Source: Lepidurus packardi
Taxonomy: Eukaryota; Arthropoda; Branchiopoda; Notostraca; Triopsidae
Length of the DNA: 64,000 nt
NCBI GenBank assembly: GCA_023053545.1
Contig: JAKZAN010000007.1
Span: 6,014,001-6,078,000 of the forward strand
Reading direction: 5' to 3'
This document shows, piece by piece, positions 29,660 to 37,310 of the stretch. Numbering within the stretch: the stretch's first letter is position 1; every line of letters starts with the position of its first letter. The notes under the pieces are model-generated. The model searched no databases and had not been told where the DNA came from. It was given only the letters and a program-made list of their open reading frames with translations. Position numbers and translations under genes: made by a program.

Positions 29660-31232
29660 ATGGCGGCTAATAGTTTAAAAGTAATTAATATTTTAGCCAT
29701 TAGTTTATGTAAAAAACATATTATAATTGTTTTTATGTTTTCTCAAGAGGAAGCTATTTTCGCTTGGGGCCGTCACGTTTGGCGGAACTGTGGCCTTTGC
29801 CTCAATATGCACAATCAAAGGCAATGAAGACTTTTACGCGAACTTTCTCATGCCTGTGGTTCACAAATGGGTGGATCCTGAGCTAGCGCACAATGCTGCC
29901 GTTTGGGCAGCTAAACACCGCCTTATTCAACCGAAGACCAAGGAATATACGTCGCTTGTAAGAAACTTTGTTTTGATTGCTGCGTATAGCAACATTAAAG
30001 TACTTCATTTCTAGCGTACGAAACTGTTTGGAAAAGAATTCCGGAATTGTCTGGGGATGGCAGCCGGTTTCGATAAGCATGGAGAAGCGTTTGAAGGATT
30101 GTTTGATGTTGGATTTGGCTTCGTTGAAATAGGTTCAGTAACACCTGAACCCCAGCCCGGTAATCCTCGCCCTCGAGTTTTTAGGCTGCTTGAAGATAAA
30201 GCGATTATTAATAGGTAAGACGGGTACCAAAAAAAATCCTATATTCTAATGCCGGTATGCGGTTTCTCTAGATACGGCTTCAATAGCGAAGGACACGACA
30301 TTGTATACGACCGAGTGACAAGCTATATTGGGCAGGAGTCATGCGGGGTACTGGGAGTGAATCTAGGAAAGAACAAAATGTCTGAAGATGCGGCAGCTGA
30401 TTATGTTAAAGGCGTTGAAAAGTTCGGTGATGTTGCGGATTACCTAGTTATCAATATTTCCAGGTATATTTATTTCTTCTGTTTTTGCTTTCCATAAGTA
30501 GAATAATCGCGTTAATATAGCCCGAATACACCCGGACTGAGACTCCTTCAAAATGCAAAGGAATTGCAAGGTCTTATTTCGAACGTAATCCAGGCTAGAA
30601 ATTCTTTGCCGTCTCGGCACCCACCCGTTCTGCTAAAAATTGCCCCAGACCTAACAGAAGATGATAAACACGACATTGCGAAAATTGTTTGCAGTAAACA
30701 AGTAAATGCAACCTTAAACTTCTTATTTAAATAATGCATTGCGTTACTGAATATCTAGTACCGATTGGATGGCTTGATTATAAGCAATACGACAATTTCG
30801 CGACCTGCATCGTTGAAAAGCCTACATAAGACTGAAACGGGCGGACTCAGCGGTGAACCTTTGAAAGACATGTCTACGCAGACGATTCGCGAAATGTACC
30901 GGCTAACGAAAGGTGAAGAATCTAATCATCTTGAGCTTTTTTGATTGTGTTTTGCTTAGGAGAAATGCCGATTATTGGAGTCGGAGGAATTTCGTCAGGA
31001 GCAGATGCTTATGAAAAAATTCGAGCTGGCGCTTCCTTGGTTCAGTTGTATACAGCTTTTGCCAATTATGGTCCCCCGGTTGTGGAAAGAATTAAGAAAG
31101 AACTTGCGGATCTGCTCAAGTAATATTAATTAATTAATCAACGTATTTTTAAATACGGTTTTATCCTTCAGACGTGATGGTTTCAGTTCCGTCTCTGAAG
31201 CTGTTGGAGTTGATGGCGGAAAGCCTCAGTAG
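29660..31232 (+). CDS. Dhod: Dihydroorotate dehydrogenase (quinone), mitochondrial, class 2
   Basis: Inner-membrane FMN enzyme that oxidises dihydroorotate to orotate in pyrimidine synthesis and passes electrons to ubiquinone. Exon 1 (29660-29680, MAANSLK) is tiny; exon 2 from 29748 gives the single membrane segment ([20 protein letters not shown]). Later exons show [40 protein letters not shown], the active-site Ser in [15 protein letters not shown] (split by an intron), [29 protein letters not shown] and the FMN-phosphate block [20 protein letters not shown]. The last exon (from about 31174) gives [19 protein letters not shown], like the family C-terminus. It ends about 200 bp before the TDP1 start on the same strand. 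Confidence 0.93.
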
Positions 31233-31436
31233 ATCTATGTTTTCTATTCCACGTGTTAAAAATGCAGAAAATACAGAGATAAAACCCATGTGTTTAAATG
31301 TTACAGTTATTGTCGCTTTAAATCAAAATGCATGGGTTCGATATACAGCCCTTCCTTCCGGCAATCTGCGCGAGACATTGGGGTACGGAGCTTGCGCAGT
31401 ATACAAACACGTGTTTTTGTTATGTTAGAAATTAGA

Positions 31437-33725
31437 ATGGCAACCAGGTCGGAATGCTTGTTCGGTAGTAAATGCTATAGAAAAAATCCTATTCACTTCG
31501 CAGAATTTCAGCACGAACATGGTAAGCGTCGGCTATGAGTGCATTGTAGTAAGATAATTTTAAAATGCCATTTGATTTTAGTTGAAAAGTTGGCTAAGAA
31601 AGTCTTCACAAAGGAGGTCGCAAAAATTAGCGATCTTGGTGTTAATTCCGCCCTTGCTGAGCAAATTCAGTGCGTTTTGAGCTTGCTAAATGGTGGGAAA
31701 ATCAGCGTGTTTGGTAAATTTTAATTATTGTCCTTAAATGTATAGTTCCTGTAACACAAATTATTGATTTGGAGTAGGCCATGAAGTGAAGACAAAAGGA
31801 AAAGACATTGTGCCTACAGTTGAAGAAGTCTCATTCGCAACTGCGTCGACAAATGATGTTTCAGACGAATCCACTCCACCTCCACTCGCAAAAAAAGCTC
31901 GCCTGGATGAAGACCGAGATTCCGAAAAGAACGCGTATCTAAGCAGCTTGTCCAACGCGTCTCAGTGGACAATTCTTGAGAAATGGACTTTATCTGCCCC
32001 ATTTCACTTCTTCTTGAGCAGCATAGAAGATGTTCCAGCTACAGACAAAGAACTACTCAGCGTTAAGTTTTCAGGTTAGGTCGATTGTCGAATACCTGTA
32101 AAACACTTTGTCCTAACCGATTAACATAGATATCTTGGACCCTCTTTTGGGCGATTTGTCTGATAGCCTTCAGCTCAATTATATGGTCGAAGTGGGATGG
32201 CTGCTTGCGCAGTACTGTCGGTTTGGACTCCAGTAAAAATACGAATATTCCTTCTTTGTTTTTGCTTTCACATATTTGTTGTAGACGAAAACCTATGCTG
32301 CTTTTACACGGAGAAGACACTAATGAGCTGAGAAAGGTGTCGGAGGCTATTCCTAGCATAAAAGCTGTCCGGGTGAAACCCAAGTATCCTTTTGGTCATC
32401 ACCATACGTATGTAATCAAGTGTAAATGTAATCATTTCTAAACTTGTATTATCCCTTTGTATAGCAAAATGTGCGTTCTATTTTATGAAGATCGGAGCCT
32501 GCGGATTGTCATTCATACGGGCAACCTGATTGAATCAGACTGGAGTAATAGGACGCAAGGGTAAACTGCGAAGCTTTCGCGATTTTGAGATTAACTATTA
32601 AGAATAATTTCAAATTATAGAGTATGGATAAGCCCACCGTGTCCCCAACTAAGCAGTACTTCCTGCAGTGGGGAATCACCTACTTTTTTCAAGCGTGATT
32701 TACGTCGATACTTCCAGGCATACCAGCTTCCTGACTTGAAACCTTGGTTGGAGCGGATCGAATACTGCGATTTTTCCCATGTCAAGTACTAGAAGCCAAC
32801 TTTCTTTTTCTCAGTTAATTACCAAGTGTTTTCTGTAGCGTTTGTCTCCTTCCCTCCATCCCCGGATCTTATGAAGGGTCGGAAATAAAACGCTGGGGCT
32901 TGGGATACCTACAGTCTCTGCTGCAGACCCACGTTGTGATACCAGAAACGGACACGACTTCCTGGACCTCAGTTATTCAGTGTTCTTCTATCGGAAGTTT
33001 AGGCGCTACTCCAAATGACTGGTTCCTCAATGAAATGGGCAATGCATTATCTGCAAGCACTAAACCAGTATTACGTGATCAAAAGAATGTTAAATTGGTG
33101 AGTTTTCCCACATCATAATTCCTATAAATGTTATTTGCAAAAGAGCCGTACTCTTGTTTTAGATTTTTCCAAGTTTTAAGAACGTAGCGACGAGCCTAAA
33201 TGGAGTTTTGGGTGGAGGATGCTTGCCTTATACGAAGAAACAACACAGCAAACAGCCCTGGTTGAAGGATTACTTATAGTAAGAAGTAAAATGTAGAATC
33301 CGTGATTTGTATGATTGTTTTTGTAGTCAATGGAAGAGTGATCATCGCTTACGCACGAGAGCCGTACCACACATAAAAAGTTATGCTCGACTATCAGCAG
33401 ATAGTCAAAATGCGCTATGGTTTATACTGTCCAGTGCTAATCTGTCGAAAGCTGCTTGGGGAATGAAGAATAAGAAGGGGAGCTGTACAATTCAAGCATA
33501 CGAACTTGGTGTGTTATTTTTACCCAAATATGTGGTAAGTTCGTTAGCTCTACTTAGGAACAAGTCTTAAGAAATCGTATTCCTTAGACGGGAGCAAGTA
33601 GTTCTTGGTTTGAGATCGGTCGCGGTGGAAACCCACCAAAAAATTCATTGCCTTACCCATTCGATATTCCTCTGACGAAGTACGAACAGGAGGACGACCC
33701 ATGGTTTATCGAGCAACTGCGCTAG
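31437..33725 (+). CDS. Tdp1: Tyrosyl-DNA phosphodiesterase 1 with N-terminal PBZ zinc finger
   Basis: Repairs trapped topoisomerase I-DNA and other 3'-blocked ends in the nucleus. Exon 1 (31437-31521) encodes CLFGSKCYRKNPIHFAEFQH, a full match to the poly(ADP-ribose)-binding PBZ pattern (C-x5-C-x6-H-x5-H with the central [FY]G and CYR). A basic helical linker (about 31581-31710) and a Ser/Thr/Pro stretch follow, then the phospholipase-D-like TDP1 domain: TLSAPFHFFLSSI, DILDPLLGDLSDSLQLNYM, first HxK motif FGHHHTKMCVLFYE, IHTGNLIESDWSNRTQG, second HxK motif RAVPHIKSYARLS with LSSANLSKAAWG, ending DDPWFIEQLR. Both catalytic His-Lys-Asn sets are present. The start is the first ATG in frame with the finger; an upstream exon cannot be ruled out because open frame continues 5'. 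Confidence 0.9.
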
Positions 33726-34363
33726 AAAGTCTAGAACAAACGTTATTTGATAAAAGACAGGCAATGGACAAAAGGCGTGATTTACAAAAAATGGTTTTTG
33801 TATGTTTCCCAAGTTGAATGAGAAGACACATGACAAATATTAAACCAATTTGTTGCAGCAATACTTCCTGTTTTCCAGTCTGAATCGTTTTGCCAAAACA
33901 CATCCAACAACTTAAAATACTAGGGCTTGCGGGGCGAACAGGTATACAGTTATCAGAATTCGAAACATTGAGGCCATTTTTTTAAATACCAAGTGGAAAA
34001 AAAGTATTAAAAAAATCGAGCGAAAGTTAATCAACTCCATGTGTAAAAACTAAGTGATCATCAGCCTCCAAAAACTTGGTAACTATGTCGATGGGTTGTT
34101 TAGGGGCCTACAACACTAGTATGTATGGAATATTTTTTGGAAAACCGCATTGATGAATACCGTACGATACCCATGCCAGACAAATCAGTTTGTAGCCTAA
34201 GTTGTTTCTTAATAAACTAATGTCAGCTCGGGAGGGAGTAGGTAAAGAAATTTGAGGCTATTTACAAGACATGAGAATCTTCTTACAAAAAATGGCCAAA
34301 AATGAGGAAAACGGGGTAGTACAACGTGACGAAGGGCATGCCCGCCACAACGATGCGTATAAT
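33726..34363. other. Intergenic, convergent TDP1 and HMGB 3' ends
   Basis: 3'UTR regions of two convergent genes. AATAAA-like signals are visible on the plus strand near 34210. No gene seen. Confidence 0.4.
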
Positions 34364-35086
34364 TTAATCATCATCGCCGTCATCATCATCATCGTCGTCG
34401 TCAATTTCCTCCTCTGCTTCAGCTTCTGCTCCCTTTGCCTTCTTTTTGTAGGCAGTCATTTCCTGGACAAGTAACAACCATATGAAAACAAGCACTTTTT
34501 ACGGACAAGTAGATTCTTACCCTTTCATATCGGCCTTTGTCCTTTTCGGCCATGGATTCGTATTTGCTCTTAGTAGCTTGGTCAACATCACCCCATTTCT
34601 TACCCAACTCCTTGGCGATGTCTCCCACTCCATACTCTGGGTTAATTGCCTTGACTTTTCCACGCTCGTCATTGCAAAACCAGAAAAACGCCGACCTAAG
34701 GAATAACCAGAAATTTATAAAACGTCTGATTTGGTAAACGTAAACAAGTTGCAAAACGGTGCTACTTACAAAGCGCGTTTGGGTGCATTCGGATCTTTTG
34801 TTTGCTTGCGCTTGCGACCTCGGACTTTTTCGCCCTTGGGTGGGATATAATCCTTCATTTCATCATCGAAACGAGTCTTGTCGCGTTCGGCCATTTCGTG
34901 GAAACGTTTACGCTCCTTCTCATTCATGGTCTTCCACCGTTCGGCGCATTTCTTGGAGAATTCAGCGAAGACGACGGACTCATCGGGGTGTTTTTTCTTG
35001 TGTTCTTCACGGCAGGTCTGCACAAAGAACGCGTAAGCGGTCATACGACCACGTGGCTTGTTAGCGTCGGCTTTCGCACGCGGCAT
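34364..35086 (-). CDS. High mobility group B protein with two HMG boxes
   Basis: Non-sequence-specific DNA-bending chromatin protein. Exons: 34770-35086, 34521-34695 and 34364-34462, totalling 196 residues. Box A reads [20 protein letters not shown] ... [20 protein letters not shown]; box B follows [20 protein letters not shown] ... [13 protein letters not shown]. The basic linker ([10 protein letters not shown]) is present and the tail ends in an Asp-rich acidic stretch ([16 protein letters not shown]), as in HMGB1-3 and fly HmgD/DSP1 relatives. The start at 35086 is the first ATG, right at [15 protein letters not shown]. Confidence 0.93.
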
Positions 35087-37310
35087 CTTCGAAATATGCT
35101 AGGATCTCTTGAGACAAAGCCGAACTGATTACAAACAGGAATCCTAGGAGCAAAAAATAAAAAAAAGATACTTAAAAAAAATTAACATCACGTATTTAAC
35201 CTATTTTCATAGTAGGATTGGCGGTTATATTCGTGCTGGCATAGCAATGGACAAAACCATTTCCTTTCCTTGTAAACCCTATTTTCCTATAGCCGTTAGC
35301 CCTGCAGGGAAACCGTAGCAGGTATAGGTAGCTTCCCGTATACCTGGGTTCAAGCTTGCTTGCCTATAACCAAGGCCAGTTCCCTTTATGTCCTACCATA
35401 TCGGCCTATTGGCGATTCCCCAAGCCAAGCCACGCACAAGAAATGACAAGCCTGCTTTTCGGGTTTCCTATTGTGCTAGCTATAGTACAGAAAGACAATA
35501 AAAAGAAACAGGAATCTTCCTAACCTGCACTGGAGCCTAATCCTGTACTAAAAGTAGAGCAGCCTCCCATGTTTCAATGTAAAGTCGGGTTCTTGTGCTT
35601 TTCTAGATGCAATGGCGTCACTTGAAATTTAGTAACGGAAAGGCGCTAAGAAGTCGCATTTTACATTAACTCGAGTCTTAAATGCAAGTTGATAAGTGTT
35701 GAATGTAGTATGCAAAAGAAAAATGGCGTCGGAAAGCCACCGTCATGGTTTCCGAGCTCATTTGATATCTAACATATGCCCTTTCTGTACGGCGCACTCA
35801 ACGACCACGCTACGCCACCATGTTCAGGGCCGCAAGAAGCCTCGTCTATATTCCAGATGTCTGGATATTTTCTCTATGCTAAAGAGCTGACGCTATGGCG
35901 GACATCGTGAGGGTATAAAGAACTCGCTTGGCTAGGGCGCTTGAGCCTTGGCATTGCTTCGAGCTTCGCTTTATGGTATCCATCGCCCATGCTCAGTTGG
36001 CCATACCATATGAAGCTAGGATAGGAATATAGAAACCGCTAAACCGAACCGAACTGGTTTGCTCCCTTTAGCTCAATACTAAATGGTCTCTTAGGACACC
36101 GGTTCTCCCGCTCTCTTTCCTTGTCCTTATCCTCCCCTTGTTTGCACGAGGGGGAATGCTAAGGGAAAGCACCCGCGGGTTCCAAACCCGCTTGCTACAT
36201 GCAGAGCGTTGCCTGCACCTTTGCCTGTAATGGTGGACGCCGTGCTACAGCCCATGCTATGCTATAGCGCCCATAAGACCATGGCTACAAGGGGCCTTTG
36301 CTATACGTTTTCGTATGTAATAAACTAATGAGAATTAAAGCGAGAAATTGAAACTGTAACCTTTTAGGCGGTTACTACACAATGTCGCTATCACGAAATA
36401 CTCGGGAACTACTTAATTAACAAGAAAATCGACTTTGCGAGGTAGCTTGCCCAGGCTACAGCCGCCATAGCCCAAGCCCTGTGACAACGGTCCCTATGCT
36501 TTACAAAGGGAAAAGCATTTAAGGCCGCAACTCACGAAATATGTCGAAATGAATAGCGACATTTCAGACATACAAAATACTACATGCAATAAAGTGTTTT
36601 CAATTACTTACGTGCAAAATACACTTTCCTACACGAGCAAAAAAACTGAGAAATCTTACCTTGACTGCAATGGGAACAGAACAAGGGTATCTTCGCAGTG
36701 GAAGAGAAGGGACACCGTCGCTTGCAGCGGCAGCTTGGAACATAGATCCTATGGACAAACTCTCATTGGTGCGATTCATAACCAGCGCCTATGAGCAGCC
36801 AATGAAAAGAGAGCTTTGGTTTCTTTTAGGGTTAGCCCAATAGTTGACTGGGATACGAGCCGGCTTCGGGCTAGAGCAGGATATAGGAAGGAAATCGCCG
36901 CCCGCTGCTACATCTATTTAGCTCTCGAAGGAAATAATGCGGGTGTTTTGTTTTGGCGGGTTGTAACAGGAAAATTTGGGTTGTTGCCTGTGATTTAGAT
37001 AATTTAAAAACTGTAGAACCTGTGCTTTCTGTGAAAAGTCATACCAAGGTAAGTCTACTAATTTTATTGCTTGCCGACACTTGACAGATGGACAGTTTCT
37101 TTGTGTTATTTGCGCTCGTGTTACTTACATAAAGTTTGACTTTCACTGGCCCCTGTTTATTTCACTTGGCTATTAAAACAATGACGGCATACATTAAGCT
37201 ACGATAAACCTAAAACTGACAGTATAATAAATATTATAAGTCCTGTATCGTGTGTTAGCGTGTCATGGACTTAAAGGCTAACGCAGTTATTATTTAGCTT
37301 TTTGGGCGCC
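35087..37310. other. 2.2-kb gap between divergent HMGB and SAP30
   Basis: No gene could be supported. The first 1.3 kb (about 35.2-36.5 kb) is visibly less AT-rich than the other gaps and is full of short words such as CTATAG, CCATA and GCTAG. A GCGGGTT-cca-AACCCGC hairpin at 36175-36191 looks like a tRNA T-arm but has no matching acceptor stem. Small frames at 36549-36843 match no family I know. Confidence 0.4.

Follow-up and report, generated by a model that had tools for sequence, protein, structure and literature searches.

The TDP1 gene of Lepidurus is predicted to encode an enzyme whose N terminus carries a PBZ zinc finger. This finger is a putative reader of poly(ADP-ribose) (PAR), the polymer with which cells tag broken DNA, and would recruit TDP1 directly to PARP-marked breaks, a reading to which we assign a probability of about 0.78. 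The window (the whole 64,000-nucleotide stretch analyzed) is part of contig C6 in a compact assembly of 108,557,554 bases (108.6 Mb) and 344 contigs. A first-pass annotation of the window had proposed the joining of a PBZ to TDP1, and as a feature of the sequence this architecture is confirmed, being present as one open, spliceable frame.

The gene occupies positions 31437 to 33725 of the window on the plus strand, and its 11 exons, joined by script, give a 573-residue frame that stays open across all of them, from the ATG at 31437 to the stop codon at 33723 to 33725 (Table 1). All 10 introns are of the GT-AG type and measure 48 to 65 bp each. The splicing is that of a gene model built on the open spliced frame, the splice sites, and the start-codon argument given below. 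The donor of exon 1 had been placed at 31521 in the first-pass annotation, exactly as in the model, and the start of exon 2 near 31581, one base too early.

Table 1. Features of the TDP1 gene, in window coordinates
Feature	Position	Strand	Content
Exon 1	31437..31521	+	residues 1-28 and first base of codon 29; encodes the PBZ finger
PBZ finger core (R4-H26)	31446..31514	+	ligands C7, C13, H20, H26
Intron 1	31522..31581	+	60 bp, GTAAGC..TTTTAG; in-frame TGA at 31536-31538 if retained
Exon 2	31582..31713	+	residues 29-72, linker following the finger; lacks an in-frame ATG
Exon 3	31778..32074	+	linker with KKAR basic patch (by eye), then start of catalytic domain (residue 149)
Exon 4	32130..32232	+	TDP1 catalytic domain; Met190, first in-frame Met after Met1
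Exon 5	32285..32407	+	TDP1 catalytic domain; H246 of first HxK motif near exon end
Exon 6	32465..32560	+	catalytic domain; remainder of first HxK motif (K248)
Exon 7	32621..32785	+	TDP1 catalytic domain
Exon 8	32839..33097	+	TDP1 catalytic domain
Exon 9	33163..33278	+	TDP1 gene
Exon 10	33327..33534	+	second HxK motif, H474-I-K476
Exon 11	33588..33725	+	end of TDP1 gene, stop

When the whole 573-residue protein was compared with Pfam at E values up to 10, just two families were found, PBZ and Tyr-DNA_phospho. The latter (PF06087) matched residues 149 to 561 over profile positions 1 to 445 of 445 (390.4 bits against a cut-off of 22; E 1.4e-116), and a search of PDB sequences returned human TDP1 (1qzq) with an E value of 3e-96 over residues 123 to 568. 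Both HxK motifs, H246-T-K248 and H474-I-K476, aligned with those of 1qzq. The catalytic domain had initially been called intact with both motifs, and the full-length profile match bears this out. The complete catalytic domain and the two HxK motifs are shared with human and yeast TDP1, whereas the N-terminal domain of those enzymes is described in a passage of PMC6895789 as poorly conserved and structurally unresolved, and the Lepidurus protein starts with a PBZ finger instead. On the full-length Tyr-DNA_phospho domain and the two HxK motifs, the protein is a predicted TDP1. The gene is single copy in the assembly, with all three PF06087 matches falling within it.

Ahel 2008 is reportedly the founding paper on the PBZ, the family in which the predicted N-terminal finger is placed by its profile score and by its CCHH spacing with a basic-aromatic core. 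The Pfam family zf-CCHH (PF10283) matched residues 4 to 26 of the whole protein with 39.5 bits (cut-off, 22.7; E 5.6e-10), and the finger scored 44.5 bits in a six-frame genome scan. With residues 1 to 73 as the query against PDB sequences, the human APLF PBZ fingers (2kqb) were returned at an E value of 2.4e-13. The ligand spacing of C7, C13, H20, and H26 is the same as in both human APLF fingers and in the second finger of an APLF-like gene in the same genome, and the early description of exon 1 as encoding a complete PBZ finger stands. Besides all four ligand positions, the finger preserves the YRKNP core and the [F/Y]G motif, and identity amounts to 13 of 25 residues in comparison with APLF PBZ1, with APLF PBZ2, and with the second finger of that APLF-like gene. 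The finger had also been described as lying directly upstream of the TDP1 domain; its N-terminal position holds, but about 120 residues (27 to 148) separate the two.

In a passage of PMC6264785, the ADP-ribose contacts of APLF PBZ1 are given as Y381, Y386, and R387. These align with F9, Y14, and R15 of the TDP1 finger, in which the equivalents of Y386 and R387 match and that of Y381 is Phe. The consensus printed in PMC4030884 has [F/Y] at the position equivalent to F9, so that Phe is allowed, and a passage of the rotifer paper PMC6264785 describes a Tyr-to-Phe change at the equivalent position of the second PBZ finger in some metazoans. As printed in PMC4030884, the consensus contains one residue more between the second Cys and the first His than human APLF; taken literally, it fitted none of four fingers (both of human APLF, that of TDP1, and the second of the genome's APLF-like gene), and with that residue dropped, it fitted all four.

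Likeness to APLF (PF10283; PDB 2kqb and 2kuo) thus extends over ligand spacing, YRKNP core, and identities to each finger, whereas APLF lacks a phosphodiesterase domain and has its fingers in tandem, and TDP1 here combines a single finger with the enzyme. The tandem PBZ of APLF is stated in a passage of PMC4030884 to bind more than 1,000-fold tighter than one finger, and the PAR affinity of the single TDP1 finger may therefore be modest. It is improbable, in our estimate, that the fusion is real and the finger no longer reads PAR, having taken on another role in RNA or protein contact or in stability. The replacement of the first adenine-contacting Tyr by Phe and the presence of one finger only would suit such a role, as would a statement in PMC4030884 that PBZ is structurally closest to ssRNA-binding tandem zinc fingers; however, the ligand positions, the core, and the [F/Y]G motif have all been kept, and a PAR system is present in the genome.

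A chance match to the PBZ profile was ruled out by the Pfam E value and by the genome scan, in which only two loci exceeded the cut-off. The six-frame scan of the assembly with PF10283, which reads exon by exon and can let intron-split fingers escape, scored 9 candidates and gave 5 rows at E values up to 1. Three rows were over the cut-off, one at TDP1 and two at C1:9549913-9550092 (26.6 and 45.9 bits); of the two under it, one was again at the C1 locus (19.3 bits) and the other, which contains a stop, was on C4 (18.5 bits). The chance that one of two randomly placed PBZ loci would lie on the strand of the single TDP1 gene and no more than 1 kb 5' of it is about 1e-5. An APLF-like gene occupies the second locus (C1:9549784-9550092). 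It encodes two PBZ fingers followed by an acidic tail as in APLF, and an intron splits the first finger after CYR. When its fragments were compared with Pfam, one gave PBZ over the cut-off, and the one holding the split first half gave it under the cut-off. An FHA-like piece was recognized by eye upstream of these fingers, in a 46-residue fragment without a Pfam match. The possibility that the PBZ exon is a fragment of a local APLF duplicate was ruled out, the APLF-like gene being on a different contig and having two fingers.

Exon 1 is very probably part of TDP1, judging from the gene model, because it holds the sole start codon found ahead of the catalytic domain. The next Met of the spliced frame, Met190, lies 41 residues inside that domain, so that the domain would lack its beginning if neither exon 1 nor some other, unseen coding exon supplied a start. 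No start codon other than that of exon 1 was found in the spliced frame before the catalytic domain, and no ATG was found when the genomic frame of exon 2 was scanned back to the stop in intron 1. Splice sites were scored with a leave-one-out matrix made from the other nine introns, against 237 GT and 249 AG sites in positions 30500 to 34500. The donor of intron 1 was among the best 3 of the 237 GT sites, and its acceptor was unremarkable, with 73 of the 249 AG sites equal or better; with nine introns, the matrix is weak either way, and the intron 7 donor (149/237) and the intron 2 acceptor (98/249) also rank poorly.

That the PBZ exon is instead a relic, or part of another small gene, and that TDP1 has an unseen upstream or alternative first exon, appears very improbable. 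A stand-alone peptide of 33 residues can be read from the ATG at 31437 to the stop within intron 1, and the membership of exon 1 in the TDP1 mRNA rests on the gene model. This view has to contend with the missing ATG in the exon 2 frame back to 31536, the lack of a Met in the spliced frame until residue 190, the good donor score, the typical length of intron 1, and the open spliced frame, and a gene that encodes nothing but one finger would be unusual. Given the start-codon and donor evidence, exon 1 as a separate gene was judged unlikely. The ATG at 31437 has an A at -3 and a G at +4. Upstream, no stop interrupts the exon 1 frame as far as 31260, and two more in-frame ATGs (31422 and 31332) leave the exact start uncertain. 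A start at one of these two (window 31332 to 31436) would lengthen the protein by 5 or 35 residues, respectively, and the 35-residue extension is Arg/Ser rich and, by eye only, resembles a mitochondrial presequence.

Genome profile scans recovered genes of the PAR system together with XRCC1 and TOP1. Rows over the cut-off numbered 3 of 3 for HPF1 (contig C3), 14 of 15 for PARP catalytic domains, 4 of 4 for PARG, 2 of 3 for XRCC1, and 4 of 4 for TOP1, of which three were at one locus on C6 and one was on the small contig C42. A locus on C5 looks like a PARP1 gene by its sequence, because zf-PARP, PADR1_N, BRCT, PARP_reg, and the PARP catalytic domain were all found over the Pfam cut-off across the five fragments scanned; a partial WGR was under the cut-off in the fragment scanned. 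At the HPF1 locus, there was no PF10283 row, and a first-exon fragment had no match, in a scan that can miss intron-split fingers. With writers of PAR (the PARP1-like gene and HPF1) and its eraser (PARG) all present, a loss of PAR metabolism was ruled out. Replacement of a lost XRCC1 by the PBZ-bearing TDP1 was ruled out in its simple form, with XRCC1_N matched on C1 at 85.8 and 71.3 bits. The TOP1 gene on C6 (C6:6169018-6169891) lies about 120 kb downstream of TDP1 on the same contig, and its adduct is the TDP1 substrate. Some of the PARP, PARG, and TOP1 rows are carried by the small contigs C145, C164, and C42, which may be nonhost; the best PARP and PARG matches were on such contigs (C145:1282-1872 and C164:48285-48842), perhaps from another organism in the sample.

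Recruitment by PAR, already suggested in the first-pass annotation, is a plausible and the most natural reading of the finger, because its residues are nearly canonical and the genome holds a PARP1-like gene, HPF1, and PARG. The sequence directly supplies the two domains, the frame that joins them, and the partner genes; splicing, zinc binding, PAR binding, and recruitment are predictions from it. PARP1 would first mark the break, whether TOP1-linked or 3'-blocked in another way, with PAR. The PBZ finger would then bind neighboring ADP-ribose units and hold TDP1 there, and the long linker (about 120 residues) would give the catalytic domain access to the 3' adduct. Vertebrate TDP1 makes use of protein contacts with XRCC1 and PARP1, to which this would add a direct route. 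In passages of the review PMC6895789, the N-terminal domain of TDP1 is said to bind the PARP1 C terminus, and PAR at damage is said to stimulate TDP1 recruitment, which might go via XRCC1. Because XRCC1 is present in the genome, the finger is probably an added or parallel means of recruitment and less likely a replacement; as a point against the PAR-reader reading, it may be redundant with XRCC1. According to a passage of PMC4858568, the PBZ-containing HPF1 of Drosophila binds PAR strongly and the human protein, which lacks the finger, does not, implying that a single PBZ can serve a repair protein.

A more far-reaching proposal is that a lineage-specific fusion made TDP1 a self-targeting PAR reader, tying TOP1-adduct repair to PARP1 activity in one polypeptide. 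In this lineage, TDP1 would then be recruited in part without XRCC1, and PARP inhibitors would affect its recruitment directly; we hold this tentatively and consider it somewhat doubtful. If the finger is a PAR reader, TDP1 would find damage by itself. The relative weight of PAR itself and of PARP1 or XRCC1 contacts in TDP1 recruitment is the wider question here, PAR being said in PMC6895789 to stimulate recruitment, perhaps by way of XRCC1. A TDP1 that naturally includes a PAR reader would be a Rosetta-stone case, with the two steps joined by evolution. With the PBZ-bearing TDP1, point mutations could test direct PAR recruitment, and the protein offers a natural template for studying the contribution of a PAR reader to the repair of TOP1 adducts.

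The PBZ-TDP1 protein is a new combination of two well-known domains, PBZ having also been gained by other repair proteins (HPF1, Ku70, Ligase K, and PARG). In the relevant passages of PMC4245714, PMC4030884, PMC6264785, and PMC4858568, PBZ is presented as a module of eukaryotes, linked to PARP biology, that has joined many repair proteins, including APLF, CHFR, and SNM1A in mammals; PARPs, Ku70, Chk2, and Rad17 in Dictyostelium; Ligase K, APLF, and PARG in rotifers; and HPF1 in insects, sea urchins, and molluscs. Drosophila CG1218/HPF1 resembles the present case in having one N-terminal PBZ on a protein of the PARP1 pathway, with a human orthologue that has none (a passage of PMC4858568), but it acts as a partner of PARP1, whereas TDP1 processes DNA ends. 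Bdelloid Ligase K and PARG and Dictyostelium Ku70, Rad17, Chk2, and PARPs likewise carry PBZ on DNA damage proteins, whereas the catalytic or binding partners of the finger in them are other than TDP1 (passages of PMC6264785, PMC4245714, and PMC4030884).

No statement of a PBZ in TDP1 was found in the literature searched, a set with subscription papers, supplements, and figures largely outside its scope and eukaryotic proteomes likewise outside it, and no paper in that literature combined “glaikit” with “PBZ.” The word “zinc” was absent from the main text of two papers with TDP1 phylogenies, including PMC10547559, and TDP1, “tyrosyl,” and “phosphodiesterase” were absent from the main text of PMC4858568, which lists PBZ proteins in its Figures 1A and S1A. 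Single-sequence peptide patterns matched 1 stretch in viral contigs and 3 in GTDB (prokaryote) contigs, none of them a relative, eukaryotes being outside both sets. It is more likely than not that PBZ-TDP1 is widespread in invertebrates and was lost in vertebrates and yeast, which would make the case one of ordinary annotation, would be compatible with the PAR-reader reading, and would bear on novelty only. A similarly patchy N-terminal PBZ in HPF1 of insects, sea urchins, and molluscs (a passage of PMC4858568) and two clusters of invertebrate TDP1 sequences (a passage of PMC10547559) favor a wide distribution, against which stands the silence of the literature searched. Our guess is that PBZ-TDP1 will occur in other invertebrates and possibly already lies unremarked in domain databases.

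Upstream of TDP1 is DHODH (PF01180, 74.4 bits in the fragment compared with Pfam). Just downstream, on the minus strand (window 34364 to 35098), an HMG-box-like protein with an Asp-rich tail was noted by eye. The contig of TDP1 also carries a COX1 insertion that translates under the invertebrate mitochondrial code and that reads, by eye only, as arthropod-like. From this fragment and the genes found, we infer an animal genome. COX1 fragments with TGA codons were numerous, being spread over C1, C2, C4, C5, C6, C21, and C38, as in frequent mitochondrial insertions, at a guess, and three stop-free COX1 frames, on C43, C52, and C214, looked bacterial, which is likewise a guess.
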